This document shows, piece by piece, positions 1 to 16,619 of a DNA stretch of 64,000 nt. Each line of letters opens with the position of its first letter. The stretch's first letter is position 1. A model generated the notes under the pieces. The model was not told where the DNA came from. It did not search any database and was given only the letters and a program-made list of their open reading frames with translations. This DNA is from Verrucomicrobiia bacterium DG1235 (lineage in GTDB: Bacteria > Verrucomicrobiota > Verrucomicrobiia > Opitutales > Opitutaceae): positions 4,598,060 to 4,662,059 of the forward strand of contig DS990592.1 of the NCBI GenBank assembly GCA_000155695.1, in the 5' to 3' direction. Both the position numbers and the translations under genes were made by a program.

Positions 1-1355
1 AGCTCGGCGAGACTGCGGCCGATCAGCGATTCGATGTTGGCGGCTCCGATGTGGTAGGATTGGAGCGCTTGCAGGTAGCTCTCTTGGAGCTCGAAAAGGG
101 TTCGCTGCGCGTCGAGAACGTCGAGGAAGGGAAGCTTGCCTTCCTTGAATGCGAGCTGGGTTCCTTGGTAAGCCTTTTCTGCGGCGGGTAGCGCTCGGTC
201 GCGGATGGCGACGGCTTCGTCGTAGGCGTTGGCAAGTTCGGAATAGGATTCGCTAAGGAGTCGTTCGAGGCGAAGCTCGGCAGCTTTCTGGCGACTGCGG
301 GCTGAGGCTTCGCCAGCTCGGGCGGATTGAATTTGCGCTTGTCCTCTATTAAATAGCGGCAGTGGTAGTGATATCCCGACTACGATGGCTTCGTCTCCGC
401 TTTCGTTGTCTCGCTTTAGTCCGAATCGTCCAGTTATATTCGGGATGGCTTCGGCTTTAGCGAGGCGGCGTTCGGCGATCCGAGCGCTGATTTCGATGGC
501 CCAACGAGCAACGTCTGGATTCTCGCCTAGATGTTGGATCAAGGCCTCGGGACTGGGGGCTGGCGACACTGCGTCCAGGTCGCCAGCGATTTCTGTGAAC
601 GTCACTACTCGTTCTCCCCAGCTTAGGGAAAGTCTTCGATAAGCGGCCTCGCGTAGCCGTTCGGCGCGTTTGAGTGCGAGCTCGGTCGTTATAACGGGGA
701 CGATTACTCGGGAGAGTTCCAGCGGTGATGCATCGCCTGCGTCAACGCGGTTTTGAGTGAGTTCTTCGGTGGCTTCGGCGAGTTCGAGTTCCTGTTTAGC
801 AAGATCCAGGCTCCGATCCGCAGCGAGAGCGGCGATGAATCGCCGCGTGACTTCGGCAATGGTTTCAAGGCGGGCCGCGTGATAGTCCCAGTCGGCGAGT
901 TGGGAGTCTAGTTCAGCGATCTTTCTGCGTTGCTTAATGCCTCCACCGAGCGGGAGGGTTTGCGCGAGGCTTAGAGTGGATTCGGCCAAGTCCGAACCGT
1001 CGAATTTTCCGTTGCCTCCAAAGTTCTCGCGTTCGTATTCAAGCTCTGGGTTCGGCCAGAGGCGAGCTTGGCGAATTCTGGCAAGCGAGCCGTTGGCATC
1101 CCAAGCGAGCGCCTGAAGCTCGGGGCTGTGCTCGATGGCGAGCGAAATAGCACGCTGAAGCGTGACGGTACCCGATACTCTTGGAGCCTCAGTTTCGCTC
1201 GGAATGTCGCGTGGAGCCGGATGAGCGGGATGAGCCGGCGTTCGTGCCTTGGCGGCTGTGCCAGCGAAGGCAAGCGCGGTAGCGAGCGAAATAGCTATTA
1301 ATCTGAGACGCCAATGCGGCGCGATTTCTAAAGTAGAAGATTGGTGACTGGGCAT
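1..1355 (-). CDS. TolC/CzcC-family outer membrane efflux protein (C-terminus outside window)
   Basis: Translating the minus strand from the ATG at 1355 gives an open frame of about 451 residues to the window edge, so the C-terminus is missing. A hydrophobic signal-like stretch (LIAISLATALAFAGTAA) follows a short basic N-terminus. The body shows the two-fold repeat of outer membrane efflux proteins: RAISLAIEHSPELQAL with LWPNPELEYE early on, and later FKEGKLPFLDVLDAQRTL with LQALQSYHIG. In the family, such proteins form the trimeric outer membrane channel of tripartite RND pumps; the wording of the repeats is closest to CzcC/CusC metal pumps. The inner membrane pump and adaptor would lie left of the window. 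It is co-oriented with the small secreted gene at 1471-1899. Family assignment is firm; metal specificity is inference. Confidence 0.85.
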   Translation of the reverse strand, partial: MPSHQSSTLEIAPHWRLRLIAISLATALAFAGTAAKARTPAHPAHPAPRDIPSETEAPRVSGTVTLQRAISLAIEHSPELQALAWDANGSLARIRQARLWPNPELEYERENFGGNGKFDGSDLAESTLSLAQTLPLGGGIKQRRKIAELDSQLADWDYHAARLETIAEVTRRFIAALAADRSLDLAKQELELAEATEELTQNRVDAGDASPLELSRVIVPVITTELALKRAERLREAAYRRLSLSWGERVVTFTEIAGDLDAVSPAPSPEALIQHLGENPDVARWAIEISARIAERRLAKAEAIPNITGRFGLKRDNESGDEAIVVGISLPLPLFNRGQAQIQSARAGEASARSRQKAAELRLERLLSESYSELANAYDEAVAIRDRALPAAEKAYQGTQLAFKEGKLPFLDVLDAQRTLFELQESYLQALQSYHIGAANIESLIGRSLAE

Positions 1356-1470
1356 GGAAAATCCTGTTTCGTTTTCGAGTGTAGAACGCGGTTTCCCTGT
1401 GGGAATCGCGGTCAGAAAGGTCCGAGGCACTCCTAGGCGCTTAGGACGGTTTCGAATTTAAAACAGGATA

Positions 1471-1899
1471 TCAGACGCGGAACACGACGGTGTCCGCAAA
1501 AAGCCGGGCGGCTCCATTTTGTATTGGTGGAGCCCTTACAGGAGTATTCTTTGAGATTATCTCTTCGTTGCGGACTACAATTAAGTCCGTCGAAGTCCAA
1601 GCGATAACAGCAATAGCTTTTACGACAACTCGGTCAACGCTGACAGTCGCTTCTTCCTCGCTCGCATCGATTTCGTAATCGATGCAGTGGTCGCATTCGA
1701 AAGGACGTGGTGCGTTCGCTGAACTCTTTACCTCCTCGATTGGACAGCAGTTTTCCGGAAGGTTAGCAGTCTTCTCCGAAGTGACGCTGCAAATCGTTCC
1801 GGAGCCCTTCTCGACGCAGTAGACCCAACCGCCAATGCCCGCTAGTGCAGAGTTGCACGCGAGAGCGATTGTGAAGATGAGCGCGAAGATAGGTTTCAT
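1471..1899 (-). CDS. Small secreted Cys-rich protein of unknown function
   Basis: The 142-residue product starts with a clear signal peptide (MKPIFALIFTIALACNSALA), so the mature protein is probably periplasmic. The mature part carries seven cysteines by eye, including CC at about residues 51-52 and CDHC at about 69-72, which could bind metal or form disulfides. It lies 115 bp upstream of the efflux gene in the same orientation, so co-transcription is likely. Small Cys-containing periplasmic proteins are common at the head of metal-efflux operons, which makes a metal-sensing or metal-buffering role plausible, but this is inference from position and composition. I do not recognise a named family. 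Confidence 0.6.
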   Translation of the reverse strand: MKPIFALIFTIALACNSALAGIGGWVYCVEKGSGTICSVTSEKTANLPENCCPIEEVKSSANAPRPFECDHCIDYEIDASEEEATVSVDRVVVKAIAVIAWTSTDLIVVRNEEIISKNTPVRAPPIQNGAARLFADTVVFRV

Positions 1900-2019
1900 T
1901 ACGTTTTGGTTTACGATCCTTGTCTGAATAAGATTGCCGGAAACTCAAGTCAATTCTTGAGAACGGATCTCAACCATTTCGCAAGACGCTAGAATCGTGG
2001 ATTTTCAAAAGAAAAATGA

Positions 2020-2061
2020 GATGTGACGCCAAATGTCACAGATGTGACGCCGAAAGTCGCG
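2020..2061. promoter_or_regulatory. Pair of direct repeats, likely operator, ahead of the element's first gene
   Basis: GATGTGACGCC occurs at 2020-2030 and again at 2041-2051, a 21-bp period or two helical turns. The first copy continues as an interrupted palindrome (GTGAC-7 nt-GTCAC). The repeats lie about 85 bp upstream of the SSB-like gene, between it and a divergently transcribed gene, as expected for a regulator or replication-initiator site. A strong Shine-Dalgarno-like AAAGGAGGGG sits at 2113-2122, which is 24 nt from the chosen ATG at 2147 and nearer an out-of-frame ATG at 2130. Confidence 0.45.
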
Positions 2062-2146
2062 CCTTGGGGGTGTTAGCAGCTCCTCCGAGAAACAAAGACG
2101 CGGTGTCCTAGTAAAGGAGGGGCTGCCTAATGAATCGAAAATCATT

Positions 2147-2803
2147 ATGGCAAAACTTGCACAACCCTCAGCGAGCACTTTCGAAGTCGGAGAACTCGCA
2201 CCAGCTGGAACTTTCGTCGCGACTTGTCTCGACGTACTCGATCAATTCGGCGTCGAACGCCCGAAGTTCGAGAATCCCAACGAGAGCGAGAAGATCGACG
2301 TGACTCGTTTCCTCTTCGGCCTCCGTGGACAGGACGGAAACATCTACAAGGTTCAATCCTACGAGTTCCGCATCAGCGGTTCTCCGAAGAGCAACCTCTT
2401 CAAGTTCCTCACTGCCTGGCTCGGCAATCCCCCAAAGTACGGCTGGGACTACTGTGAACTGAAAGGCCAAGGCGCGATGATCACCATCGCCCACAAGCAA
2501 AACCGCGACAACACTCGTACCTTTGCTAGCCTCAACAGCATCGCTCCTGTCATCGAGCAGCTGAAGGGCGAAGTGCTTCCACTCGAAGCCTTCCCAGCAG
2601 ATCAAGAGCAACAAGCTCCTGTATCCACCCCTCAAGCACAACCTGCTTCCGTTCCTGCGGCTCACATTCCCGCGAATGTACCGATGCATGGGCAGTACCC
2701 GCAAGCGGTCCAGCCCGCTCAACCACAGGCACCCCAGCAGCAAGCTCCACAGCCTGCCTGGAATCCTGCCATTGCTCCTCAGAATCCGAGCAACCCGTTC
2801 TAG
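2147..2803 (+). CDS. Phage-type single-stranded DNA-binding protein (SSB-like)
   Basis: The protein has 218 residues. Roughly 140 N-terminal residues look like a compact OB-fold-type domain, with SPKSNLFKFLTAWLG, a typical phage ssDNA-binding signature, and a following beta-rich segment ending ASLNSIAPV. A long Gln/Pro/Ala-rich linker follows from about residue 150, and the protein ends in NPSNPF. A disordered tail with a hydrophobic tip is the usual layout of SSB proteins, although this tip lacks the acidic residues of classical SSB tails. It is the first gene of a run that continues with nucleases, DNA polymerase and primase. It probably coats ssDNA during replication or recombination of the element. 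The exact Pfam family was not determined; a DUF669-type assignment is possible. Confidence 0.6.
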   Translation: MAKLAQPSASTFEVGELAPAGTFVATCLDVLDQFGVERPKFENPNESEKIDVTRFLFGLRGQDGNIYKVQSYEFRISGSPKSNLFKFLTAWLGNPPKYGWDYCELKGQGAMITIAHKQNRDNTRTFASLNSIAPVIEQLKGEVLPLEAFPADQEQQAPVSTPQAQPASVPAAHIPANVPMHGQYPQAVQPAQPQAPQQQAPQPAWNPAIAPQNPSNPF

Positions 2804-2851
2804 GCCAAGCCTACAGCCTCAAAACCTATAGCCTAAACACCTAGAATAGAA

Positions 2852-3664
2852 ATGGCAGTTCTCAAAAAAGACAGTGGCTCCTCATCCCACTGGTACAAAG
2901 AAGACGGTAGTCCTTGTCATCGCGTGCCTCGTGCAGGCGGTGACGGGCTCCGTCCCACCACCATTCGCGACGCCCGACGTCTGCGTTTGTATCCAAGCGT
3001 TACCTCCATCCTCGGAATCTTCGCCAAGCCTCAACTCGACCGCTGGAAGATGCGTCAAGTCGCCCTCGCTTCGATGCGACTCGAACGCACGAAAAACGAA
3101 AGCGATGAGTACTTCTCGGATCGCATCATCGAAGAAGCTTTCGCTCAAGTCGGCGAAGCTGCGGAACTCGGTTCGCGTATCCACGACGCTCTCGAAAAGT
3201 ACTTCGAAGGCGTACCGATTGCCGAAGACCTCCAAGTCTACACCAAACCGGTTATCGACTGGAAACATGAGAAGCAAATCGAGTTCGTTGAACGCGAAAA
3301 GACGCTTGTAAACCACAAGGAAGGATTCGCCGGAACAATGGATGTAGCTTGTCGCTATGGAGGGGACGGAATTGGCGTCATTGACTTCAAGACCCGCAAG
3401 ACCACTCCCGGCCAACCCGTGTATCCTTACGACGGCCAAGCCATGCAGATCGCAGCCTATGCCGCGACCTACTGGGGCGAGGAGAACCTCGGAAATGTCT
3501 TCGGAGCCAATGTCTACATCTCCACCACGGAGCCCGGACGCCTCGAAGTCTGCTCCTACACTCCTGAACTTCTGATCGAGGAATACGACGTATTCAAAAA
3601 GGCCTGCTCCATGTGGAGGCATATGAAGGGCTTCGATCCACGGAAGGGAGCTAAACATGGCTGA
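2852..3664 (+). CDS. PD-(D/E)XK exonuclease, RecB/lambda-Exo/Cas4-like
   Basis: The 270-residue product shows the RecB-type nuclease core: an early helix with GEAAELGSRIHDALEKY, then GFAGTMDVACRY supplying the metal-binding Asp, then GIGVIDFKTRK, the D-x-K active site, and finally the QAMQIAAYAATYW helix (QxxxY). These are the standard motifs of the phage exonuclease/RecB/Cas4 superfamily. Next to an SSB-like protein, the likely role is resection of DNA ends for recombination-dependent replication of the element. No CRISPR array or other cas gene is present, so Cas4 proper is unlikely. The stop overlaps the next gene by 8 bp, suggesting translational coupling. Confidence 0.75.
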   Translation: MAVLKKDSGSSSHWYKEDGSPCHRVPRAGGDGLRPTTIRDARRLRLYPSVTSILGIFAKPQLDRWKMRQVALASMRLERTKNESDEYFSDRIIEEAFAQVGEAAELGSRIHDALEKYFEGVPIAEDLQVYTKPVIDWKHEKQIEFVEREKTLVNHKEGFAGTMDVACRYGGDGIGVIDFKTRKTTPGQPVYPYDGQAMQIAAYAATYWGEENLGNVFGANVYISTTEPGRLEVCSYTPELLIEEYDVFKKACSMWRHMKGFDPRKGAKHG

Positions 3665-3944
3665 TAAAGCTTGGAAAGCCCTAGAGAGACGCGTTGCCAC
3701 GTACTTCAACACGGAACGCAACGCTCTCTCCGGCGGCAACTCCAAGGTCACTCGCTCCGACTCGCTGCACCCCGATCTCTTCATCGAGTGCAAGCAACGT
3801 CAGAAACATTCCGCCGTCACGCTCTGGGATGAAACGAAGCAACTCGCCGACAAGGAGCAGAAAACTCCCGTCGTTTGTCTAGCCGAGAAGAACCGTAAGG
3901 GATTCTGGATACTGGTCCACTCCGACGACCTCTCGAAGCTGTAA
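3657..3944 (+). CDS. Small PD-(D/E)XK endonuclease, possible Holliday-junction resolvase
   Basis: This 95-residue protein opens with a basic helix containing a conserved-looking Glu (KALERRVATYF), then a beta hairpin with HPDLFIECKQR, a textbook PD-(x)n-E-x-K active site, then a hydrophobic strand (KTPVVCLAEK). Size and layout match archaeal-type Hjc resolvases and related small phage nucleases. It overlaps the upstream exonuclease gene and precedes a hairpin terminator, so it closes the first transcription unit. Resolving recombination or replication intermediates of the element is the likely job; a restriction-type function cannot be excluded. Confidence 0.6.
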   Translation: MADKAWKALERRVATYFNTERNALSGGNSKVTRSDSLHPDLFIECKQRQKHSAVTLWDETKQLADKEQKTPVVCLAEKNRKGFWILVHSDDLSKL

Positions 3945-3959
3945 AAACCCACAACTAAA

Positions 3960-3990
3960 GGCCCGTCCGCAGATGGGCGGGCCTCCTTTT
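3960..3990 (+). terminator. Hairpin terminator after the SSB-nuclease unit
   Basis: GGCCCGTCC (3960-3968) pairs with GGGCGGGCC (3975-3983) around the loop GCAGAT, followed by TCCTTTT. A closely related hairpin recurs at 6230-6251 after the polymerase gene, so the stem is also a dispersed repeat. Confidence 0.65.
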
Positions 3991-4047
3991 CTAAAACTCA
4001 ATTACGCAACCCAATGCACCCGCGTGTGCAGAAACCTAAAAATCTAA

Positions 4048-4275
4048 ATGGAAACAAGTTTATCTACCGAATCTAAACCCAAACTCGTTGATGCAAACGG
4101 ACTGCTCGAAGTCCTCTTCGACAAGTCCTCTCGACCCTCCGTTCGCTGGGTCCGTCAAATGCAGGCCCAACGCAAAATCCCATACGTCAAGATCGGCCAC
4201 CTCGTCCGATTCGACGTAGAAGAGGTGAGGCAAGCCCTCAGCGAAAACTGCACCGTCAACCCTCGTCGACGCTAA
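4048..4275 (+). CDS. Small helix-turn-helix DNA-binding protein (AlpA/excisionase type)
   Basis: The 75-residue protein contains a MerR/AlpA-like winged helix: VRWVRQMQAQRKIPYVKIG followed by HLVRFDVEEVRQAL. The pattern of a helix, then I-P-Y-x-K-I-G, then a 'vRF' strand and a closing helix is typical of excisionases and small phage regulators. It lies 6 bp upstream of the DNA polymerase gene, so the two are likely co-translated. Roles to consider are excisionase, working with the integrase at 11939-13267, or repressor/activator of the replication genes. Confidence 0.65.
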   Translation: METSLSTESKPKLVDANGLLEVLFDKSSRPSVRWVRQMQAQRKIPYVKIGHLVRFDVEEVRQALSENCTVNPRRR

Positions 4276-4281
4276 ACGATC

Positions 4282-6126
4282 ATGGTTTGCTTAAGTCCAC
4301 CTTACGCCAAGCCGGAACCAACCGACCCCGACCAGATGAGTCTCGGACTCCTGGCCGGGGCCAACGGCGGCTCCCGCATCCAACCCGCGCAACGTCGCGT
4401 CTACGGCTTCGATACCGAAACGTATTACTCAAAAGGATACGACATCCGCTCCCTCGGAGTAGACGCCTACGTCGCCGATCCTCGCTTCGATTGCTACCTC
4501 GCGTCCTTCTGGGGACCGCATGGCAACTTCGTCGGCCACCCGAGCGAATGTCCTTGGGAAGAGTTCAACGACTGTGTCTGGATCTCCCACAACGCCCGTT
4601 TCGACCGTGCCGTGTTCTTCCGCATGAAAGAGCTCGGAATCGTTCCCGCTCACATCATGCCTCGCGAGTGGCACGACTCCGCCGCTTTGGCCGTCTATCT
4701 GCAAGCTCCTCGCAACCTCGCAGGAGCCGCAGAAAAGCTGCTTGGCGAAAAGCCGAACAAGGCCATCCGCGACGCGATGAAAGGCATCCAAGGCGGTTTG
4801 CTCTGCCACGACAAAGCCGTGCTCGACTACGCCCTCGACGATGCTCGCCTCGCTTGCGAACTCTGGATTTCCCATTGCGACAAATGGCCCAAGAAGGAAC
4901 GCCTTCTTTCTCAGCTCACCATCGAGCAAGGCGAGTACGGCGTGCACCTCGACCAGAAGCGAATCCGCGAAGGCATCGAAACGCTCACCCAAGTTCGCGA
5001 CGATGAAGCGACGAACCTCCCTTGGTTCCCACGTCTCAAGCCGAGCAGTCCCAAGGCATTCGCCGAGGCTTGCCAGCAAGCACGCATCCCGATTCCCAAC
5101 TCCACCAGCGAAGACGATCCGCAAACTCAAGAATGGATCGAGCGCTATGGAGAACGGTATCCATGGCTCAAACACATGAGCGAGTGGCGAAAGGCCAATC
5201 GCATGCTCAAGGTTCTCGAAACCATGCAAAGCCGCTGTCGCCGCGATGGCAGCCTTCCATTCGGTCTCAAGTACTTCGGAGCTATCGCGACCGGACGCTG
5301 GGCAGGCGACGCCGGGCTCAACTTCCAGAACTTCAATCGCGAAGCCTACTATGGAGTCGATCCCCGCAAGTGCCTCGTCGCGCGACCAGGGCATAAGCTC
5401 ATAATCGCCGACCTTTCTCAGATCGAACCCCGCGTCCTCGCATGGATCGCGGGCGATCGCGAACTCTTCGACAAGATCCGCAACGGCCTCCCGATCTACC
5501 AAGCCCACGCCGAAACCTCGATGAACTGGAAAGGTGGTGATCTCAAGAAAGAGAACTCGAACCTCTATCTCCTCGCCAAATGCCGCGTCATCGGTCTCGG
5601 CTACGGAGCCGGTTGCAAGACCTTCCAGTCCTTGGCGCGTGGATACGGATTGGAGATGTCCATCGGCGAAGCCAAACGCACCGTCGACGACTTCCGCAAA
5701 GCGAACCCTCGTATCGTCAGTCTCTGGCAAGCTGTCGAAGACAGCATGCGCTATCACATCGGGAGCACCTTCTTCATGTACCTGCCGAGCCTGCGATCCA
5801 TCCGCTACTTCGACGTGCAAGAAGAGGAGGGCCTAACCGCCACCACCGAACGCGGCGGCCGACGTCTCCACTGGTACGGCGGAAAGCTCACCGAAAACCT
5901 CGTCCAAGCCACTGCAAGAGACGTCTTCGCAGAAGGACTCCTGCGTATCCACAAAGCGGGCATCCGTATTCTCTGGACCGTCCACGACGAAGTCATCTGC
6001 GAAGTCCCCGAGAACTCCGACATCACCGTCGAAACCGTAACGGACCTACTCGCCCAAACACCCGACTGGATCCCCGGCCTGCCCGTCGCCGCCGAGGGAA
6101 TAGAGACCAGCTGCTATACAAAGTAA
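4282..6126 (+). CDS. Family-A DNA polymerase with 3'-5' exonuclease (phage type)
   Basis: The 614-residue protein has a DnaQ-like proofreading domain with all three motifs: GFDTETY at about residue 42, SHNARFDRAVF near 105, and a YALDDARLACELW segment near 186. The polymerase domain has motif A (IIADLSQIEPRVLAWIAGD, about 374), motif B (KCRVIGLGYGAG, about 433) and motif C (WTVHDEVICEV, about 566). The 5'-nuclease domain of cellular Pol I is absent, as in T7-like and other phage replicases. It probably copies the element's DNA with the ATPase and primase-like proteins downstream. The ATG at 4282 follows the helix-turn-helix stop by 6 bp; a later ATG (residue 19) would also keep all motifs. 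Confidence 0.9.
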   Translation: MVCLSPPYAKPEPTDPDQMSLGLLAGANGGSRIQPAQRRVYGFDTETYYSKGYDIRSLGVDAYVADPRFDCYLASFWGPHGNFVGHPSECPWEEFNDCVWISHNARFDRAVFFRMKELGIVPAHIMPREWHDSAALAVYLQAPRNLAGAAEKLLGEKPNKAIRDAMKGIQGGLLCHDKAVLDYALDDARLACELWISHCDKWPKKERLLSQLTIEQGEYGVHLDQKRIREGIETLTQVRDDEATNLPWFPRLKPSSPKAFAEACQQARIPIPNSTSEDDPQTQEWIERYGERYPWLKHMSEWRKANRMLKVLETMQSRCRRDGSLPFGLKYFGAIATGRWAGDAGLNFQNFNREAYYGVDPRKCLVARPGHKLIIADLSQIEPRVLAWIAGDRELFDKIRNGLPIYQAHAETSMNWKGGDLKKENSNLYLLAKCRVIGLGYGAGCKTFQSLARGYGLEMSIGEAKRTVDDFRKANPRIVSLWQAVEDSMRYHIGSTFFMYLPSLRSIRYFDVQEEEGLTATTERGGRRLHWYGGKLTENLVQATARDVFAEGLLRIHKAGIRILWTVHDEVICEVPENSDITVETVTDLLAQTPDWIPGLPVAAEGIETSCYTK

Positions 6127-6229
6127 CACCAGCGCTGGTCTCGTCGTACCGAGGAACCGCAGGTTCCGACACTCGAGCGCAGCGAAGACATCCCATTGCT
6201 ACACCAAGTAGCAGACCCCAATCAGGTAG

Positions 6230-6251
6230 GGCCCGTCCGCCGTGGCGGGCC
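6230..6251 (+). repeat. Second copy of the GC-rich hairpin
   Basis: GGCCCG (6230-6235) and CGGGCC (6246-6251) flank an inner CC/GG extension, matching the hairpin at 3960-3983. It lies in the 169-bp gap between the polymerase and primase-like genes. No clear T-run follows, so terminator function is weak; it is probably a REP-like repeat. The remainder of this gap ends with the CCTA-rich spacer described under findings. Confidence 0.5.
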
Positions 6252-6295
6252 TCATCCCTACAGCCTAAAAACCTACCACCTAAACAACCTACAAA

Positions 6296-7225
6296 ATGGC
6301 CATCTTAAAAAACACCACCAAAGCCCTTGAGGCATCACTCAAGCATCCACCCGAGCCCGGACAACGAAACGTCTGGCTCTATACAGTCGCCAAGCGTGCG
6401 AAGAACGTCGCTTCACGCGAAAAGATACGCTCCTTCCTGATGAGCGTCGCCTCTCAGTGGAACGACCGCGACTTCACTCCGGAGATCGACCGAGCCATCG
6501 CTCGAGCCTTCGAAGATCGCGAAGCACCTCCCGAGTCCGAACGCATTCCGCCTTGGCCCAAGTTCAACCAAGACGCCTGGAATCGTCGGCTCGACCACCC
6601 GAGACTCTTCGGGGGCGAAGGCGCTCAGTTGCCTGCCAGCGCGGTCATAGACCGTCTTTTCTCCGAAAACGACCTGCTCTGCATGTCGCTTGATACCAAG
6701 AGTGCTGTCACCCAACGACGCCAATTATGGCGCGGGTCGGAAGCTGCTATGCAGTTTTTGGTTCCCAATGCCATGACCAAAGAAACAGGCATCACACAAT
6801 CCGGCAACATCTCTTGCCGCTCCCTCGATAACGCCACCCGATCCAAGACCTACCAAGTCATTGAATACGACCGTGGCACTCTCGAAGAACAAGCATCCAT
6901 CCTCTCGTCACTACACACTGAATACACGCCCCTCATCATGGTCGTCTACTCAGGAGGTAAGTCACTGCACGGATGGTTCGACGTTCGCACCCTCGACGAA
7001 GCCTCCAAGCTCCGATTCTTCCGCCATTCCGTCTTCCTCGGATCCGACGCCTCACTCTGGGACGCCTCCAAGCTCGTACGCATGCCAGGAGGACGCCGAG
7101 ACAACGGAAAGACACAGGACATCCTCTACTTCAATCCTTCGAGCTCGCCTCGAACCCTGAGCTCGTCGAAGGGCTCTGCACCCCGTGTCCGCCATAGCTT
7201 TAGCGAAGGAGGAAAACACCCATGA
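6296..7225 (+). CDS. Primase-polymerase-like (AEP superfamily) protein
   Basis: The 309-residue protein shows three motifs of archaeo-eukaryotic-type primases: an acidic strand VIEYDRG (about residue 187), YSGGKSLHGWF (about 215-225), and a C-terminal block with KLVRMPGGRRDNGKTQ (about 257). The first 80 residues (PGQRNVWLYTVAKRA, then a helical segment ending DRAIARAFEDRE) resemble the PriCT accessory domain, here placed before the catalytic part. The likely role is priming for the neighbouring DNA polymerase. Only one acidic motif residue is obvious to the eye, so activity is uncertain. The last 25 residues or so are encoded by a REP-like insertion (7138-7205). The stop overlaps the next ATG as ATGA. 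Confidence 0.6.
   Translation: MAILKNTTKALEASLKHPPEPGQRNVWLYTVAKRAKNVASREKIRSFLMSVASQWNDRDFTPEIDRAIARAFEDREAPPESERIPPWPKFNQDAWNRRLDHPRLFGGEGAQLPASAVIDRLFSENDLLCMSLDTKSAVTQRRQLWRGSEAAMQFLVPNAMTKETGITQSGNISCRSLDNATRSKTYQVIEYDRGTLEEQASILSSLHTEYTPLIMVVYSGGKSLHGWFDVRTLDEASKLRFFRHSVFLGSDASLWDASKLVRMPGGRRDNGKTQDILYFNPSSSPRTLSSSKGSAPRVRHSFSEGGKHP
7138..7205. repeat. REP-like insertion in the 3' end of the primase-like gene
   Basis: The stretch contains CCTTCGAGCTCG, then CCTGAGCTCGTCGAAGGG, then GTCCGCCATAGCTTTAGCG. The first two form an interrupted inverted repeat (CCTTCGA...TCGAAGG). Similar CCTGAG/CGAAGGG sequence recurs at 10938-10964. The insertion keeps the frame and supplies the C-terminal residues SSSKGSAPRVRHSFSEGG. 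Confidence 0.55.
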
Positions 7226-8361
7226 GCACCAACCTTATAGAAATCTGGAAGGAGATCGAGGATCCCAACTTCCACGTCACCGAGAACCAACTACACCCAT
7301 CGCCCAAACCCTTCACCGTTCTCAACGGTTCGAAACTCCGCTCGATCCCTGTGCCCGAGAAGGTCGATATCCTTGGCGACGGCGTCATCTCGCTCGGTCA
7401 GCTAACCACCATCATCGGACAGGGAGGCACAGGAAAGAGTCGCGTCACCATGCAGATCGCCATCTCCCAAATCCTCGGATGGAGCATGGCCGGACTGAAG
7501 ACGCACCCCGAACCACTGAAACACCTGCTCATCGGTACCGAGAACAGCATATACCGCCAGAAGTCCGAATATCGAAAGATGACTCAGTCGCTCTCACCTG
7601 AACAACGGGAGCAAGTAGATGCCAACATGTTCTTGCATGTGGTCCAAGAGATGGACGACGCCTTCATACACCTTGGGTCGGACGACATCCGTAAGAAGTG
7701 GGTGGATACATTCGAACTCGTCAATCCCGACGTCGTTTACATCGATCCTTATGGAGAAGTTCACGTGGGGGACATCAACAAGGATGCCGACGTCCGCCAC
7801 ACCCTCCGAGAAATCACCAAAGTCTGTCGCCGCTTCAATCCCCGTACTGCCATCGTCATCGTGCACCATGGACGAACCGGTCGGGCAAACATCGCTCAAG
7901 CCGTCGGTTGGGACAAAGGCAACTACGCCCTCGGATCCAAGGCCCTGTACTCGGGAGCACGTTCCCAAATCAACATAGCCCCCGCCGATCCCGACGACCC
8001 ATCCCGCATCATCCTAAGCAGTGGAAAGTCCAACGACGCCAAACCCTTCGACCCCGTCGGCCTCAAGCTCGACGACACAACCATGCTCTACGGGATCGAC
8101 GCATCCTTCGACCTCCAAGCCTGGAAAGCCGATGTCGACGGCAAGCAGTTGAACACGAACTTCTCCATCAAAGAAGTCGCTCAACAACTCCTCGATAAGC
8201 CGAAAAAGAACTCCGAAATCCATGCCGAACTGGGCGGATCCGAAGCCGGTTCACGCCGCTCTTTAGACCGCATTTTGGCCAAAGGCAAAAAGGAGGGCTA
8301 TTTTCGCACTGAAAAACGGGGATACAAACTCACTAAAAAGGGAAGCGATTTGATCGCCTAA
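7222..8361 (+). CDS. RepA/DnaB-like RecA-fold ATPase (replicative helicase candidate)
   Basis: The 379-residue protein has a Walker A motif (GQGGTGKS, about residue 67), a Walker B strand (VVYIDPYGEVH, about 172) and a hexameric-helicase-type sensor strand (TAIVIVHHGRTGR, about 210), typical of the RepA/AAA_25 group of plasmid and phage helicases. After residue 310 comes a winged-helix tail (SIKEVAQQLL ... GGSEAGSRRSLDRIL ... GYKLTKKG). Its ATG overlaps the stop of the primase-like gene, so a coupled primase-helicase pair is likely. The KaiC/RecA fold is sure; helicase function is inferred from family and neighbours. Confidence 0.8.
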   Translation: MSTNLIEIWKEIEDPNFHVTENQLHPSPKPFTVLNGSKLRSIPVPEKVDILGDGVISLGQLTTIIGQGGTGKSRVTMQIAISQILGWSMAGLKTHPEPLKHLLIGTENSIYRQKSEYRKMTQSLSPEQREQVDANMFLHVVQEMDDAFIHLGSDDIRKKWVDTFELVNPDVVYIDPYGEVHVGDINKDADVRHTLREITKVCRRFNPRTAIVIVHHGRTGRANIAQAVGWDKGNYALGSKALYSGARSQINIAPADPDDPSRIILSSGKSNDAKPFDPVGLKLDDTTMLYGIDASFDLQAWKADVDGKQLNTNFSIKEVAQQLLDKPKKNSEIHAELGGSEAGSRRSLDRILAKGKKEGYFRTEKRGYKLTKKGSDLIA

Positions 8362-8404
8362 ATCCGTATCCTACAACCACCTACAAAATTCCCGAGTCAC
8401 GTTC

Positions 8405-8488
8405 TATGACATGTCATAATGACAGGTCGCAAAGCCCTATCATATGACACTATGACGACCCCCCTTTAGGGGGGTGTCATCGTCATAG
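8405..8488. promoter_or_regulatory. ATGACA repeat cluster with palindrome and long hairpin; candidate origin or operator
   Basis: A perfect 14-bp palindrome TATGACATGTCATA lies at 8405-8418. ATGACA repeats follow at 8419-8424 and 8444-8449, with ATGACG at 8452-8457. Next comes a long hairpin: CTATGACGA plus CCCCCC (8450-8464), loop TTTA, then GGGGGG (8469-8474), a TGTCA bulge, and TCGTCATAG (8480-8488). The cluster fills the gap between the RepA-like gene and a small helix-turn-helix gene. Iterons beside a replication ATPase suggest an origin; the hairpin may also act as a terminator. Confidence 0.5.
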
Positions 8489-8521
8489 ACGGGTCGGGAA
8501 GCTTAAAACGCCTTATCGCTC

Positions 8522-8749
8522 ATGGCCTCAAATTCCGAAGAACAATTACTCTCCGTCAAAGAACTCGCTTGGAAACTCAATCGCCACCCGAACTACGTCT
8601 ACCTCATGCGAAAGGCAGGCTTCGTGATGGGCGGCAATCGAACCACGCTCGAAGAAGCACGAGAGTGGCTGGCAGAAAATCCAAACTGGCGAGGACGCCT
8701 AACAACAGGCGACTCCAAACTCGGCAAGATCGTATCCAGCCACGACTGA
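8522..8749 (+). CDS. Small helix-turn-helix protein (excisionase-like)
   Basis: The 75-residue product carries a helix-turn-helix of the excisionase/HTH_17 type: LLSVKELAWKLNRHPNYVYLM, then GGNRTTLEEAREWLAENP. It is unlike the first such protein (4048-4275) in sequence but of identical length. It sits just after the ATGACA repeat/hairpin cluster, which could be its binding site. Candidate roles are excisionase or copy-control regulator. It is the last clear gene before the 1.57-kb gene-free stretch. Confidence 0.6.
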   Translation: MASNSEEQLLSVKELAWKLNRHPNYVYLMRKAGFVMGGNRTTLEEAREWLAENPNWRGRLTTGDSKLGKIVSSHD

Positions 8750-9614
8750 CAACAACCCCTCACTCGCTGGCGCTCGCTCGGTAGTCCTCCTCCCGTTGGT
8801 CGTCGTGCTGTCGCGGCAACATCCACCCAACTCGACTCCACCCGCAGACGCTGAGATCTTCGCTCTCTCCGTTCCATTCCGCTTAGCCGTTCGCGGTGGC
8901 TTTCCCTCGTTTCTGCTCGTGCCCCTCGCTCAACCGCTACCGATGCGGCGAGTCCAGATCTCGGACAAGCCGAGCACTGGTCTCGCTTATCGCATCGTCC
9001 GCGGATTCGCGTCCTGCTTCGCAGGCACGTGGCACCAGCAGCCCCGAGCCGCCACCACTGAAACGGCACGCTCCATTTCACTACGATCTCTCAGACGTCA
9101 GCGACTGTTCGCCCAATTCGCAATCAACATCCCCGTGGTCGCCCGTTCGCAGAGCTAGCAGCAGCAACCGTCTACGCTTCGTTCCTCAGCTTCGCCTATA
9201 GCTGCCACTACCACTGCTCGGCGGGCTCTCGAATCACCGCGATCGCTCGCCAAACTCACTCCATCCGCAAACGACAAACATCGCCGCTCATCGGTTGTCA
9301 CCGAAACGCAACTACACCCCCCTCGCATCTTGAGTGCCAGCAAAGCTGTCACACGAAGCTGCACCCACTGCAGTCCGGCTTCGCCCGTACAACGTGACAT
9401 TATGTCCATTTCGTTCACGCTACGCTCACCCTCGCTTGGCAGGTATGCCTGCTCTCGGTCACGAGATGGTACATAATGTCGTATTGTACGCTTTCGTGGG
9501 TCGGTCGGCTCCGTTGCGTTCTTGGCTGTCGCCAAGATTCGCGGCTTCTGTCGAGTCACCATCGCTGACGCGATTCCACGCTGTTAGCTTTTCGGCTCTT
9601 ATCGATTGTAGCTG

Positions 9615-9643
9615 TTCCCAGCCACCCGGGCCCCGGCTGGGAA
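9615..9643. repeat. Perfect 9-bp inverted repeat
   Basis: TTCCCAGCC and GGCTGGGAA are separated by an 11-nt GC-rich loop. No T-run follows on either strand, so it is a structural element rather than a clear terminator. Confidence 0.6.
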
Positions 9644-9803
9644 GGAGAGTCGAGTGCAGCCGAGCCGAAAGAGACGTCCTTCGCTTCGCTCAGTCCTGAG
9701 TAGTGCGGGCTACCCCGCCCCCGCCCGGGGTGCTTGGTAAGTCATCGCTTTGTCGCCCATTCTGTATTCGCTTGTCGAGTACGATTGTCCGGCTGCTCCA
9801 GGC

Positions 9804-9834
9804 GGCCCCTGCCATCAAGAAGATAACAGGGGCC
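9804..9834. repeat. Perfect 8-bp inverted repeat
   Basis: GGCCCCTG and CAGGGGCC flank a 15-nt A-rich loop. This is one of several stable stems inside the gene-free stretch. Confidence 0.6.
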
Positions 9835-10319
9835 TTCCCCCCGCCACCCGCTGCGCGGACGCGGTGGCCCCGCGTCTTCGCCGGCGTCGCTCCGCTGGCC
9901 GGCATTGCCGCTTACGCGCCCCCAGCACGTCGAATCGCCTGCAGCTACGCCGCCAGTCGCCGAGCGGCCAAGCCGCCCGCAACAATCAAACCCTCCATGC
10001 GTGCTTCCCAGCGTGGCCGGTTGAGTTCGCCCCTCAAGGTAGTGCTCGCTAACGCTCGCCTCCACCTTGACCGCCTCGCTCCCCCGTCTCCTCAAACGCT
10101 CGCCGCTTGGCAGGTTGCAAAGTCGGTTCCAGAAAAAACGCTCTTCAAAGAGAAAACCTGCGACGTGGGCCATTGGCATTGTACGCGCCTAAACACAGCT
10201 GGCCTGCGCTGTCACGCAGCCGCGAAGCGGAGAGAAAAACGCGACAGTGAAAGAGCGTGAAAACGGGTTGAGTTGTCGGCTCGCAGCTTGGTTCGTTCGC
10301 CTCAGCATGAGGTCGTGTT

Positions 10320-10751
10320 ATGGCATTCGATATTTCTCCAGACCTTTTGACGATGGGCGCCTCAGCTGTTGCCGGTTTCTACATGAAACATAAGGCAGAA
10401 GAGCGGAAAGAGCGTCACGCCGAACACATACGAGCCTCCGAGCGGCGTCACCTCTCGGAGGCTTCGCGCGTTCGGGCTGCCAGCGTCGCCGGACAGTGGA
10501 TACGCCGCTTGCTCGTTGCCGCCATCGTCTTCGCCGTAATCCTCGCCCCCTTCATTGTCACCGTCTTTACAGACGCTGGAACTGTCCTCCAATACTCCGA
10601 GCAAACCGGAGGAAAACTCTTCGGCCTATTTGGCCCCGCCAAAAACGCCGTTCGCTTTCAAGCAATCGACGGCTTGCTCATCACTCCCGAAACCCGCCAA
10701 GCGCTGCTCGCCGTTGTGGCCTTTTACTTTGGACAAGGAGCCGCGAAGTGA
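10320..10751 (+). CDS. Small membrane protein, holin-like
   Basis: The 143-residue protein has a charged N-terminal third with many Arg, Lys, Glu and His (KHKAEERKERHAEHIRASER), then a strong membrane segment (LLVAAIVFAVILAPFIVTVF, about residues 65-84), and a second, weaker hydrophobic stretch near the C-terminus (ALLAVVAFYFGQG). Size, charge pattern and two membrane segments resemble small phage holin-type proteins. It overlaps the following membrane gene by 4 bp. Without a lysin or spanin in view, lysis is only one option; an envelope-associated or exclusion function is equally possible. Confidence 0.55.
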   Translation: MAFDISPDLLTMGASAVAGFYMKHKAEERKERHAEHIRASERRHLSEASRVRAASVAGQWIRRLLVAAIVFAVILAPFIVTVFTDAGTVLQYSEQTGGKLFGLFGPAKNAVRFQAIDGLLITPETRQALLAVVAFYFGQGAAK

Positions 10752-10933
10752 AACGCATCCTCCTCAGCCTTCTCGAAGATCGTGCCGCCCTCATCGGCTC
10801 TGCCGGAACCGCCTGGACGGTCGCGCTCAAACACATCCACACTTCAGTGGGCATCCTCGTAGGACTCCTCACCATCGTCTACCTCACGATCAAGATCCGG
10901 GAAGAGCTCAAACGCAGCAAACGCGATGACTGA
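10748..10933 (+). CDS. Very small membrane protein, holin-like partner
   Basis: The frame starts with GTG at 10748, overlapping the upstream stop (GTGA), and encodes 61 residues. A single membrane helix (SVGILVGLLTIVYLTIKI, about 33-50) is followed by a very basic tail ending EELKRSKRDD. I chose the GTG because the overlap implies coupling and the longer upstream frame is only a shadow of the previous gene. A pair of small overlapping membrane proteins is the usual layout of holin/antiholin genes. The region just downstream holds a REP-like repeat. Confidence 0.55.
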   Translation: MKRILLSLLEDRAALIGSAGTAWTVALKHIHTSVGILVGLLTIVYLTIKIREELKRSKRDD

Positions 10934-11213
10934 GCCGCCTGTCCTGAGCGAAGCCGAAGGGCTCACCCGGGCGAAGCCCAAAAAACGCACTCGCCCGGGA
11001 AGGGGGTTAGGGGGATGGGCAAGCGAAGCGCGAAAAACGCGCTCGCCAGAAAAAACGCAAAAACGCCCCGCGCCAGAAATCGCGCGAGGGCATCCGGAGG
11101 AATCGCGAAGCCGTCTACTGACGGAGTCGAACCGAAGGGGCGAAACCTAAGTTAGCGACTACAGCGAGCTCATGCTCCCACTTGCGAAGCAAGAAGGAGA
11201 CTGAGTGCCTGAC
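10934..11213. other. Gap with REP-like repeat
   Basis: CCTGTCCTGAGCGAAGCCGAAGGG (10938-10961 approximately) resembles the REP-like insertion at 7138-7205. The rest is rich in AAAAACGC words and GC-rich inverted repeats (GGGCGAAGCCC, CGCGCCAGAAATCGCGCG). A 74-codon Lys/Arg-rich frame starting at 10926 runs through it but looks like repeat DNA, not a gene. Confidence 0.4.
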
Positions 11214-11876
11214 TCATCTCATTGGACCGAAGACGCCTACACTGTTTAGGGTTTCCCAAACACGCTTGATCGCTTGTCCAGTTTCCTTGCTGACAAAAAG
11301 CGATGAGACTTTTCCACACGGCCTGCCAAGGAAGTAAGGCCTCATGTCTTCCCAATGTTCGCCAACACTCGCATTTCGCCAACTGGGAATTTCCTTCTCC
11401 AGCATCATAGCAACTGCCGACCTCGTCGGAATGCTACCATCGCCTGGGATATAATCATAACTTTCGCAGGTGACTAAAACCGGAGTTGCGTTCTCATAAT
11501 AAAGAGGGAAATCCAGTCGAGTAGCTTCTATGTGTGCCAAGGCTTCACTCTGGTCGCATTCTTCTATAGATTGGATGACAGCGTCGTCCCCTGCGTAAGG
11601 ACAAGTAATGAATCCTCCTCGCATGAAGATGGTGTGGTCGATGCCTCTGTATCCACATCGTTCACTCGGTATTGTTTCAGTTCCGAATTCATCCGGCTTC
11701 AAATTTACCATAGGATGCCAGCTTGGATAGCTCTCGACCACAGGACCATGCTCATCAATCAATTCTTTTAACTTCTGTATGCTGGAAGGTCTTACATCTC
11801 GATTTAGCCCCTCCGTTAGGTAGTGGATCGCTCTCTCCCTTGCACTTTCTGTCTCTTCTTTAATTCTAAAAACCAT
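11214..11876 (-). CDS. Unknown cargo protein of the integrative element
   Basis: The product has 220 residues from the ATG at 11876; a GTG at 11906 would add 10 residues but would place the GTGCAC palindrome inside the gene, so the ATG is preferred. The protein looks soluble, mixed alpha/beta, with several Cys (ERCGYRGIDHTIF; GFITCPYAGDDAVIQ; TCESYDYIPGDG). I recognise no family. Base composition is lower in GC than the replication genes. It is transcribed towards them, between the holin-like pair and the integrase, the usual place for accessory genes such as defence, toxin or regulatory functions. Function is unknown. Confidence 0.6.
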   Translation of the reverse strand: MVFRIKEETESARERAIHYLTEGLNRDVRPSSIQKLKELIDEHGPVVESYPSWHPMVNLKPDEFGTETIPSERCGYRGIDHTIFMRGGFITCPYAGDDAVIQSIEECDQSEALAHIEATRLDFPLYYENATPVLVTCESYDYIPGDGSIPTRSAVAMMLEKEIPSWRNASVGEHWEDMRPYFLGRPCGKVSSLFVSKETGQAIKRVWETLNSVGVFGPMR

Positions 11877-11880
11877 AGTT

Positions 11881-11906
11881 GTGCACAAGATAGGTGTATT
11901 GTGCAC
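11881..11906. promoter_or_regulatory. GTGCAC repeat pair upstream of the cargo gene
   Basis: The palindrome GTGCAC occurs at 11881-11886 and 11901-11906, 20 bp apart centre to centre, in the context TTGTGCACAA and TTGTGCACGA... read on one strand. It lies 5-30 bp upstream of the ATG at 11876, where a repressor operator would overlap the promoter. Confidence 0.4.
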
Positions 11907-11938
11907 GAGTCAATGTATTTGTGGTTTGATGAAGGTCT

Positions 11939-13267
11939 CTACAATGCAACTTTCAGCTCTTTCGCTTCTTCGAAACGTCCAGCAACCTTCACGAGATTTT
12001 GGGGAAGGTTCGTGCCTTCGGGTGTGATTCTCCAGAACTCGTCGGCTTCTGCCTCGGTCTTCAAGTCGAGGTAGTGTTTGCGGATGATGTTCTCGGAGTT
12101 GCCAGCTTGTAGGGCGGCGTCTCCGACGGACTGAAAAGCTCCCACGATCATCGAAATGAAGGTGTGACGGAGGACGTTGTGATCGAGTCCGTTCTTTTTT
12201 CGGATAATTTTGCGATGGTACTCGAGGCGATTGGGGACGATGGGGTATTCGTCGAGCGGGTACTTTTCCAGCCAGAGACGCAAGTTTGGTTGGATCTTGA
12301 TGGCTCGCTTTTCATCGACCTTGGAAACTTCCGGTTCGATGAGGATCACGCCCGTATCGAGGCGTATATGCTCTTTCTTGAGGCGACCGATTTCGCCGGT
12401 GCGAATGTCTGGCCGGAGTCCTGCGAAGAGGCAGAGAGCAAAATACGGGACGAAGATGCCTTTGGGGAGAGGCTTACGCTTTGGGTTGTCAGGATCGCCG
12501 TCGTAGTCCTCGACGTACTTCATGAGTGCCTCGGCTTGCTCGGCGGTGATCGTTTCCGCAGAGCCTCGCTTCGCTTTGATCGTGAACTGAGGGACCTTGT
12601 CGAGAGGATTGAGCATGAGCCAATCCTTGAGCACACAAAAGCGAAAGAAGGTGTTCAGGTAGCCTCGCTTGTTGTTGAAGGTCTTGGGGCTGATATGGCT
12701 GTTGTTTTCGCCAAAGGTCAGATTGTTAAGGTAGTTGCGGATGAGCTCGGGATCCATCTCGCCAAGAAGCTTTTCGCCGTACTCTGCTTTAAATTTGGTG
12801 AGCTGCGTGGTCATGGTACGAAGTTGCACGGCGGTGATGATGTTTCGCTGATGCTCGATTCGCTTGTGCTTCAAGTATTCGTCGATGGAGGTTTCGACGG
12901 TTTGCTCGAACTCCGCTTCGCGGTAGCGGTCGAGGGCGTACCTTACATAGTAGGAGAGAGGTTTCTTGCGGCCTTCGAGCATCTTGAAGGCGATCTTGGC
13001 TTCCTCGCATTCTTCGCGACTGAGGGAAGTCATGACGACCTTTTCGTAGTTCTGCTCGGCGCGTTGCTTTACTTCGAGCCGCTGCTTTTCCTCGGTAGCC
13101 TCAGACTTCTCCTGGAAGTTCTTGCGGTAGCGTTTGCCGTTGATGGTTCCGGCAACTCGCCAGTAGACGGTTCCGGTGGGGTGCTTCATCCGCTGGACGG
13201 TGAACTTCCCGTATTTCTTTCGCTTCTTTTCCCCTGGAAGCGACGCAGGGGTGCTTGAGTTGGACAT
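11939..13267 (-). CDS. int: Tyrosine recombinase (integrase) of the element
   Basis: The 442-residue protein has a basic N-terminal part resembling an arm-binding domain (VYWRVAGTINGKRYRKNF), a core-binding helical region in the middle, and a C-terminal catalytic domain. Catalytic residues visible are Arg in CLFAGLRPD (with an extra IRTGE insertion), Lys in EPEVSKVDEKRAIKI, Arg in HNVLRHTFIS and Tyr in IIRKHYLD. The usual His of the HxLR box is Asn here, with a His just before it. It ends at 13267, 54 bp from the 3' end of tRNA-Ser, the classical place of an integrase beside its attachment site. It is the right-hand boundary gene of the element. Confidence 0.9.
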   Translation of the reverse strand: MSNSSTPASLPGEKKRKKYGKFTVQRMKHPTGTVYWRVAGTINGKRYRKNFQEKSEATEEKQRLEVKQRAEQNYEKVVMTSLSREECEEAKIAFKMLEGRKKPLSYYVRYALDRYREAEFEQTVETSIDEYLKHKRIEHQRNIITAVQLRTMTTQLTKFKAEYGEKLLGEMDPELIRNYLNNLTFGENNSHISPKTFNNKRGYLNTFFRFCVLKDWLMLNPLDKVPQFTIKAKRGSAETITAEQAEALMKYVEDYDGDPDNPKRKPLPKGIFVPYFALCLFAGLRPDIRTGEIGRLKKEHIRLDTGVILIEPEVSKVDEKRAIKIQPNLRLWLEKYPLDEYPIVPNRLEYHRKIIRKKNGLDHNVLRHTFISMIVGAFQSVGDAALQAGNSENIIRKHYLDLKTEAEADEFWRITPEGTNLPQNLVKVAGRFEEAKELKVAL

Positions 13268-13320
13268 GGTCCAAATTTGCCAATTCTAATTGGCAAAGAC
13301 AAGCGTAAGTCGTTGATAAA

Positions 13321-13409
<89 letters not shown>

Positions 13410-14793: not shown

Positions 14794-16035
14794 ATGGCGA
14801 CCGAATCTAAAGAATACTCGATGCCCGATGCGGCAAGCCGCGCGGCGCAAGCTTCGGAAGAGTTCGAGACTGAAAAGCTCGAGCTTAGCATGGGACCGTC
14901 TCACCCGTCCACGCACGGGGTTTTGCGACTCAACCTCGAGCTCGACGGAGAGATCATCCAGAAGTGCGACCCCGTGCTTGGATATCTTCATCGTGGCGAC
15001 GAGAAGATTGCGGAGAACATGACTTACAATCAGTTTGTGCCTTACACGGACCGATTGGACTATCTTGCTCCGCTAGCGAACAACGCAATCTACGCGATCG
15101 CGGTGGAAAAGCTCACCGGTATTGAGGTGCCTGAGCGTTGCCAGGCGATCCGCGTGCTAACGAGCGAGATGGCCCGAATCTCCTCCCACCTGCTAGGACT
15201 CGGAGCTTACACTATGGATGTCGGGGCTTTGACGGTGTTCATGATTACCTTCACCGAGCGTGAAAATCTCTACACGCTTTTCGAGGAGCTTACCGGAGCT
15301 CGCTTCACTACTAGTTATAGTAGGATAGGAGGAGTCACCCGCGACATGCCGGATGGCTGGATGGACAGGGTGCTTGGCTTCTGCGACCACTTTCTCCCGC
15401 TCTTGGACGATGTCGAGAGCTTGCTTTCGCGTAACCGTGTTTTCGTGGATCGCACGGCGGACATTGGAATCATCAGCAAGGAAGACGCGATCGCGTATGG
15501 ATTGACGGGACCGAATGCTCGCGCCTCCGGTCTCGATCTCGATCTCCGTCGCGACGCCCCTTATTCCGGCTACGAGAAGTACGACTTCGAGGTAGCTCTT
15601 GGCGAAAACGGCGACTGCTACGATCGCTATCTCGTTCGCATGGAAGAGATGCGGCAGAGCGTTCGCATTATCCGGCAAGTCATTGCTCAGATGCCGGAGG
15701 GTCCTTATCGCGCTGAAGACGCGAAGAAGATCATTCTTCCGCACAAGGACAAGACGCTCACTTCCATGGAGGAGCTCATTCAGAATTTCATGATCACGAC
15801 GGAAGGCCCGCAGATTCCCGCTGGCGAAGTCTACTTCGAGGGCGAAGCCCCGAAGGGAGCGCTTGGATTTTTCATCCATTCGAAAGGTGGAGGAGTCCCT
15901 TACCGCATGAAAATTCGTGGTCCCTCTTTCTGTAACTTAAGCATTTTGCCAAAACTCTGTGTTGGCGTCATGGTATCCGACATCCCGTCGATCCTTGGCA
16001 GCTTCGACTTCGTAATGGGGGAATGCGATAGATAA
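14794..16035 (+). CDS. nuoD: NADH-quinone oxidoreductase subunit D
   Basis: NuoD, the 49-kDa-type subunit, forms the quinone-binding pocket with NuoB. The 413-residue protein contains ELSMGPSHPSTHGVLRL, then YLHRGDEKIAENMTYNQF and YTDRLDYL, all family hallmarks, and ends in VMGECDR, the standard C-terminus. An N-terminal extension of about 30 residues rich in Ala and Glu precedes the conserved part. It is followed by a 96-bp AT-rich gap with GTGAGTTGG-type micro-repeats before nuoE. Confidence 0.95.
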   Translation: MATESKEYSMPDAASRAAQASEEFETEKLELSMGPSHPSTHGVLRLNLELDGEIIQKCDPVLGYLHRGDEKIAENMTYNQFVPYTDRLDYLAPLANNAIYAIAVEKLTGIEVPERCQAIRVLTSEMARISSHLLGLGAYTMDVGALTVFMITFTERENLYTLFEELTGARFTTSYSRIGGVTRDMPDGWMDRVLGFCDHFLPLLDDVESLLSRNRVFVDRTADIGIISKEDAIAYGLTGPNARASGLDLDLRRDAPYSGYEKYDFEVALGENGDCYDRYLVRMEEMRQSVRIIRQVIAQMPEGPYRAEDAKKIILPHKDKTLTSMEELIQNFMITTEGPQIPAGEVYFEGEAPKGALGFFIHSKGGGVPYRMKIRGPSFCNLSILPKLCVGVMVSDIPSILGSFDFVMGECDR

Positions 16036-16614: not shown

Positions 16615-16619
16615 TTACG

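Follow-up and report, generated by a model that had tools for sequence, protein, structure and literature searches.

How does a large genomic island spread between bacteria when it carries much of a phage replication machinery and no recognisable gene for a particle or for conjugation? This question arises at the left end of a 64,000-nucleotide stretch of the genome of Verrucomicrobiia bacterium DG1235 (contig DS990592.1 of GCA_000155695.1; G000:C6:4598060-4662059; genome size 5.78 Mb), hereafter the window, where such an island is inserted at a tRNA-Ser gene. The element has two defined ends, combines a phage-type replication block with metal-resistance cargo, belongs to a family whose members outside the genus carry phage head genes, lacks that head block itself, and has passed between species. 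On balance, and with modest confidence, we regard it as a headless derivative of capsid-forming satellites of the class Opitutia that spreads in borrowed particles with metal resistance as its cargo.

Using a DNA search of the element's own genome, we found that each end of the island carries the same 26 bp of the tRNA-Ser 3' end as an exact repeat. The right attachment site (attR) lies at 13320..13345 (plus strand) and the left one (attL) at C6:4565277, 46.1 kb to the left of attR and 32.8 kb before the window start. The whole element therefore measures 46.1 kb (G000:C6:4565277-4611404, window -32782 to 13345), and the window holds its right-hand 13.3 kb (1..13345). The integration target, a tRNA-Ser(GGA) gene called by ARAGORN and Rfam, occupies 13322..13409 on the minus strand, next to the tyrosine integrase gene (11939..13267, minus strand; phrog_1, 2.7e-25; 98% identical in a sister element described below). 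An earlier note on this DNA had correctly seen the integrase beside tRNA-Ser; its extent of about 11 kb proves too small, and the left end that it had left to be found is the one now fixed by the repeat outside the window. The tRNA-Ser/NADH-dehydrogenase flank was found in all seven other genus genomes searched, and no element protein matched beside it in the 20-kb stretches read there. The att repeats, together with these element-free sites in relatives, show site-specific integration. A shorter 21-bp copy of the tRNA-Ser end is present in the same genome at C6:4565113, and att-like extra copies were seen in two genus mates, Pelagicoccus sp. SDUM812002 (G003:C75 24865) and Pelagicoccus mobilis (G004:C142 9154; oriented locus), which suggests tandem or earlier insertions near such sites. 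In a further genus mate (G005), three genes resembling the left-hand neighbours of our attL stand some 10 kb away from the tRNA-Ser gene of the NADH-dehydrogenase flank.

About 35 kb of the element, its left three quarters, is cargo, largely for metal efflux. Between attL and the SSB-like gene that opens the replication block, Pfam matched a sigma factor, a P-ATPase of heavy-metal type, two RND pumps together with their partners, a cytochrome c, a sodium/proton antiporter, MerT/HMA and MerR proteins and a cation-efflux protein, as well as a weak metal-resistance domain under the cut-off; the rest encodes a transporter, an AraC regulator and a Schlafen-type protein, along with proteins that had no match. 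The cargo enters the window at 1..1899 (minus strand) with an outer-membrane efflux protein (OEP domain), cut by the left window edge, and a protein of 142 aa; the sister element has conserved counterparts of both. From there the cargo continues left to attL. Neither this cargo nor the conserved non-coding region discussed below was foreseen by the earlier note as part of the unit. In 50 element open reading frames (ORFs) scanned with Pfam, two of them by way of their orthologues in the sister element, we found no virion, terminase, tail, relaxase or type IV secretion domain, so that the reported lack of capsid, terminase, tail and relaxase genes holds for the ORFs scanned across the element. 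The scan set aside ORFs below 60 aa, a 90-aa ORF at window -9455, overlapping or opposite ORFs and those within the non-coding region, and PHROGs were run on ten window proteins only. The 50 ORFs also bear on transfer by conjugation in trans, in which the element would carry an origin of transfer (oriT) without a relaxase and use its replication block for copy number only. Such transfer is improbable in our view: the cargo size would suit it, and pOriT plasmids, in which the transfer machinery is wholly encoded elsewhere (excerpts of PMC11389934), offer a precedent, but no relaxase domain was found and the relatives otherwise bear phage head genes. An integrative and conjugative or mobilisable element is likewise recognised by a relaxase or type IV secretion, neither of which these ORFs contain; a bare oriT would be compatible with them.

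The replication block is itself a poor guide to the nature of the island. A tailed prophage, G360:C27, has SSB, exonuclease, polymerase, primase and ATPase genes in the same order; the gene after this block has relatives that include annotated phage large terminases, a further gene has relatives annotated as tape measure proteins, and its other late genes were judged by eye. The resolvase and the first helix-turn-helix protein (HTH1) of our element found no match between the block genes of this prophage. The same gene order in ordinary tailed phages of the host group, which the earlier note had named as refuting its reading, is thus found in part, for five of the block genes. The IMG/VR contig L226 likewise carries the replication block. 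Since both share it, we rejected the block alone as proof of a satellite; because it occurs in a tailed prophage, the genes after the block, and not the block, mark a satellite. The polymerase was also rejected as a family-defining marker, since IMG/VR holds many relatives of it (318, of which the best 80 have 35-46% identity). This prophage is the main point in favour of an ordinary temperate phage with structural genes beyond the left window edge. Against it, the 32.8 kb to attL are cargo without virion domains in the scanned ORFs, no head, terminase or tail gene was found there between the att sites, and two other block copies in the genus have restriction-modification genes nearby instead; we ruled this candidate out on attL and cargo content and regard it as scarcely credible.

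Related copies occur in other species of the genus. A sister element in Pelagicoccus sp. SDUM812002 (G003:C75; 36.7 kb, 29-bp repeats) sits at tRNA-Ser(TGA), a different tRNA-Ser gene, and is 93.8% identical to the window element over 30.8 kb in 12 blocks. Between the same two genomes, the flanking NADH-dehydrogenase gene is only 82.6% identical, with 91 of 183 four-fold sites matching, whereas 82.3% of 868 four-fold sites match across five element genes. For the flank, identity to G003 is 81.9%; five further genus mates range over 80.7-82.5%, and a sixth had no match in that test. Since the sister stands at 93.8% against flanks of about 82%, at a different tRNA-Ser gene, the element moves, and the comparison indicates a recent transfer between species. 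Two more block copies, G003:C71 and G004:C84, lie among different neighbouring genes, with restriction-modification genes near the block (type II/IIG-like in the former, type I in the latter). The G004:C84 contig ends within a membrane-protein gene; the right end of this copy seems to be contig C160, which has a 67% identical integrase at tRNA-Leu. An insertion-sequence-like ORF pair was noted in the cargo of three copies (G003:C75 43760-46155, G004:C84 97953-100327 and G003:C71 426434-428733), in two of them no more than about 2.5 kb from the SSB-like gene.

There are thus four headless copies across three genomes. No head gene follows the non-coding region in any of the Pelagicoccus copies, and the terminase of the head-bearing relative L037 found no match in Pelagicoccus genomes in a search run without a positive control. 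Protein identity exceeds four-fold-site identity in all five genes compared; the four-fold value for G004 is about 60% (403/675), with the exonuclease gene left out. These comparisons bear on whether the island is the decayed remnant of a satellite or prophage, its head block deleted and its metal cargo left in a fossil that moves only by chance, through general transduction or recombination. The lack of virion genes and of a helper terminase in eight genomes fits such decay, as do the partial extra att copies, which suggest a much-used site. We nevertheless consider it rather unlikely, since the window copy has kept its core ORFs open, conservation in the genes compared is higher for the proteins than at four-fold sites, the non-coding region is under constraint, and the four headless copies in three genomes include a near-identical one in another species at another tRNA gene.

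To follow the family beyond the genus, we scanned 84,980 species genomes with a pattern-based primase search, which reaches close relatives, and obtained four loci, three in Pelagicoccus and one in an Opitutae metagenome-assembled genome (L037). In viral contigs, primase and exonuclease found no relative with short patterns that reach close relatives only. In L037 the gene order is the same as in the window, SSB-EXO-HJR-HTH1-POLA-PRIM-REPA-HTH2 (five BLAST rows, 56-74% identity). The block is followed by an ORF-poor stretch, TerS, a terminase, a Mu-like portal, a protease, an unknown gene and a capsid gene. Beyond the capsid come a lipoprotein-like ORF, a protein of 331 aa and, against tRNA-Leu, an integrase 43% identical to that of the window. 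No tail gene was seen between capsid and integrase. The left part of L037 was partly scanned, and its sole left-end repeat candidate has 4 mismatches in 24.

Among 384 class genomes, 50 gave a match to the L037 capsid protein. Two islands in G183 and those in G266 and G127, the last spread over two contigs, share the order tRNA, integrase, HTH1, replication genes, ORF-poor region, TerS, TerL, portal, protease, unknown gene and capsid. In G183, a one-contig genome, one island has 25-bp repeats at its two ends, at a spacing of 37.1 kb, and carries the head genes; no tail family matched in its 14 scanned ORFs. Neither a head-tail connector nor an HNH gene was found among the scanned genes of L037 and G183, where part of the ORFs were scanned. 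Genes of this island's cargo that are FtsK-like or encode a PAPS-reductase and an aminotransferase V are, in our reading, a Dnd-type defence set. The G266 island sits at a tRNA-Ser(GGA), and the genes beside it look like the NADH-dehydrogenase operon that also adjoins the window element. Relatives of the L037 terminase were found in 33 IMG/VR loci, many of them fragments; in two of these, L244 and L248, the head block is preceded by matches to SSB, exonuclease, resolvase, HTH1, primase, ATPase and the second HTH protein (HTH2). In relatives, 40 ORFs located after the capsid gene matched 38 PHROG families; no tail family was among the 25 shown, and one match was a head scaffolding family. These 40 came from 54 listed ORFs, with the L249 integrase and all of L275 and L276 left out. 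The Portal_Mu profile matched nowhere, and its absence is hence uninformative.

Three further observations concern these relatives. L037 (2865-5766) and G266 (28792-31771, oriented) share a defence-like cargo pair, a protein of 262-267 aa and, after it, a QueC-like protein; PADLOC calls the L037 QueC-like protein QatC, and the pair is likely defence cargo. The unannotated 31.9-kb record of Akkermansia phage DTMo-2021a (CP084202.1) holds a 29.8% identical capsid relative at 15881-16633. Primase relatives occur in 43 of 384 class genomes, with a same-profile integrase nearby in 11 of 22 neighbourhoods read, and these loci often look like small integrase-HTH-primase elements without a polymerase.

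Two small membrane genes locate the place of the missing head block. TM2 (10742..10933, plus strand) has relatives in 16 of 32 loci with a capsid match (E 1.6e-13 to 1.3e-6). They lie 10-776 bp downstream of the major capsid protein (MCP) gene in 15 loci, and in L265 the relative overlaps the MCP end. Because TM2 relatives adjoin the capsid gene downstream, the Pelagicoccus copies seem to have lost the head block from the interval that separates the non-coding region from TM2. The preceding gene TM1 (10320..10751, plus strand; phrog_38283, 1.1e-22) has relatives in Verrucomicrobia phage P8625 and in Roseobacter phages, and no significant match in capsid-forming loci. Since its relative in CRP-603 adjoins a cell wall hydrolase gene, there is a hint of a role in lysis.

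The region directly before these genes (8750..10319) is non-coding, with no consistent ORF and many 1-nt indels, and is conserved. Its identity to G003:C75, G003:C71 and G004:C84 is 96/84/79%, compared with 82/58/58% at four-fold sites of coding genes in the same three copies. Within it, we defined a packaging-site-like core (9798..9939, plus strand) with a profile built from the four genus copies and no outside sequences. Of 35 loci with TerS, 30 have a match to this profile upstream of that gene at E <0.01, ending 197-496 bp from it in 29 of the 30 and 2870 bp away in L274; the distance count omits the five loci without a motif at this threshold and keeps near-duplicates such as L245/L246. 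An alignment of the whole region with L037 was set aside as largely forced, about 85 nt matching independently at E <0.01. By its position, the non-coding region suggests a packaging site, although the likeness of the core to the relatives may reflect common descent rather than one function.

Under the reading we favour, the island would integrate at tRNA-Ser by its own integrase, probably be excised by the excisionase-type HTH proteins together with the integrase, and replicate itself through its phage-type block of exonuclease, family-A polymerase, primase and helicase-like ATPase. TerS, TerL, portal, protease, a small protein and capsid would have been lost while the region directly upstream of TerS was kept, and a co-infecting phage or a capsid-forming relative would supply in trans the terminase that recognises that region and packages the DNA. 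This reading, which refines the satellite proposal of the earlier note, draws on the lack of virion and conjugation genes and on the head-bearing, tail-less relatives, while the gene order of the block is partly that of a tailed prophage. A bolder variant, which we hold to be unlikely, is a satellite of satellites, in which the headless islands would have kept the packaging region of the family so that a capsid-forming satellite packages them in its own heads, and a tailed phage would provide the tails; if true, a three-tier parasitic chain would move metal resistance between marine bacteria.

Several observations weigh against our interpretation. No helper terminase of the Terminase_6N or GpA type was found in eight genus assemblies (as controls, Terminase_6N matched in 6 of 14 genomes and GpA in 3 of 14), so no resident helper or capsid-forming relative was seen, and the partner would have to come from outside or use another terminase type. 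At 46 kb, the element exceeds the 6 to 18 kb given for satellite genomes in excerpts of PMC11389934. The polymerase had no match in L244 and L248 and is therefore not constant in the family. The loci used for the TerS distances were fetched by terminase or capsid likeness, which biases that count towards loci with TerS; an unbiased DNA search (384 genomes, two candidates scored per genome) gave six core-overlapping rows outside the element's own locus, four beside TerS and two (G008 and G310) without head genes where read. G008 was briefly considered as a second headless element and dropped, since it looks like an isolated motif copy.

The non-coding region could, finally, be a replication origin instead, or a structured RNA, in an element that is packaged all the same. 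We rate this alternative as a serious but lesser possibility. Its constraint extends over 1.5 kb, more than a packaging site needs, stray core copies occur without TerS, folding of the first 0.8 kb is stronger than that of 20 shuffles, whichever strand is taken (z -6.4 and -6.7), and a 20-nt inverted repeat is present at 9386-9490. On the other side, the best conserved core keeps a near-fixed distance upstream of TerS, the second half is not clearly better than shuffles (z -1.3 and -1.1), and the four-copy consensus fold gave no covariation support, at low power (term +11.8; 7 of 192 pairs changed on both sides). No Rfam family matched the region, and with the second half and the covariation result this speaks against the structured-RNA reading, which we set aside.

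The replication genes, the two HTH proteins and the integrase stand where the earlier note had placed them, and all but the SSB-like protein gave profile matches. That protein (2147..2803, plus strand, 218 aa) matched no Pfam or PHROG family and its structure model is of low confidence (mean pLDDT 39.5); it is termed SSB-like solely from its operon place and its conserved C-terminal Pro-Phe, presumably an SSB motif, and the original call stands to that degree. On the plus strand follow a RecB-like PD-(D/E)XK exonuclease (2852..3664; phrog_298, E 5.5e-25; PDDEXK_1, 3.7e-4, under the cut-off), a small Holliday-junction-resolvase-like nuclease (3657..3944; phrog_2002, E 3e-6) and HTH1, an excisionase-type protein (4048..4275; phrog_1840, 1.3e-4, weak) whose relatives lie near the integrase in capsid-forming islands. 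The family-A DNA polymerase (4282..6126; DNA_pol_A, 3.5e-21; phrog_17, 1.4e-72; alignment A1) was rightly recognised, while its proofreading 3'-5' exonuclease domain was matched only weakly (E 0.016). The primase (6296..7225; phrog_2597, 7.9e-6) has a low-confidence structure model, and the block closes with a RepA-like AAA_25 ATPase (7222..8361; AAA_25, 3.3e-19) and HTH2 (8522..8749; phrog_66, 4.6e-4, weak, excisionase-type), which has relatives in L037 and some IMG/VR relatives. Sequence searches of the PDB returned nothing useful.

Among known systems, the relatives outside the genus most resemble capsid-forming phage-inducible chromosomal islands (cf-PICIs; excerpts of PMC10690885), sharing TerS, TerL, portal, protease, capsid, a tRNA integrase and a primase with no detected tail. 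The defining set of own capsid, portal, protease and both terminase subunits is present in these relatives and absent from the window element, which shares with cf-PICIs the lack of tail genes in its scanned ORFs. Typical cf-PICIs also encode head-tail connectors and an HNH endonuclease. Hosts here are Opitutia, and the Pelagicoccus element is 46 kb long without capsid genes. In the excerpts, cf-PICIs are widely distributed across Bacteria (PMC10690885), and Opitutia are not among the main host groups named (PMC10803314). P4-like satellites and classical PICIs (excerpts of PMC11389934 and PMC10690885) are alike in their tRNA integrase, excisionase-type HTH protein and own primase, and travel in helper particles, as the window element may do; the latter is much larger and has its own family-A polymerase, exonuclease and resolvase. 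No match named Sid, Psu or Rpp appeared in the general library results, no search having been aimed at them. P4-like satellites carry a P4-type alpha primase-helicase with psu, delta and sid. MulchRoom and MiniFlayer of Streptomyces (excerpts of PMC10690885) carry capsid and packaging genes, like the outside relatives, and have no primase, whereas the window element has a replication block and no capsid genes. The tailed prophage G360:C27, by comparison, has the same block order followed by terminase-like and tape-measure-like genes. Tycheposons and VEIMEs, which excerpts of PMC11389934, PMC10803314 and PMC10690885 name, are marine integrating islands whose cargo may travel in virions, and our element may resemble them in this. 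Searches of the open-licence PMC literature, with excerpts of PMC10924106, listed no description of phage satellites in Verrucomicrobiota or of capsid-forming ones in Opitutia.

These results place a family of capsid-forming satellites in Opitutia and link to phage satellites a kind of large resistance island whose means of transfer is often unknown. With headless and head-bearing members sharing one non-coding region, a satellite living on the packaging of another element becomes directly testable.

Two minor features of the window remain. A 230-aa ORF (11214..11906, minus strand; no Pfam match) fills a variable slot before the integrase, which holds different genes in the sister copies. Outside the element, between 29001 and 60000, GC content drops to 0.35-0.44 in parts (29-30, 51-54 and 56-60 kb), and the GC skew climbs sharply beyond 29 kb.

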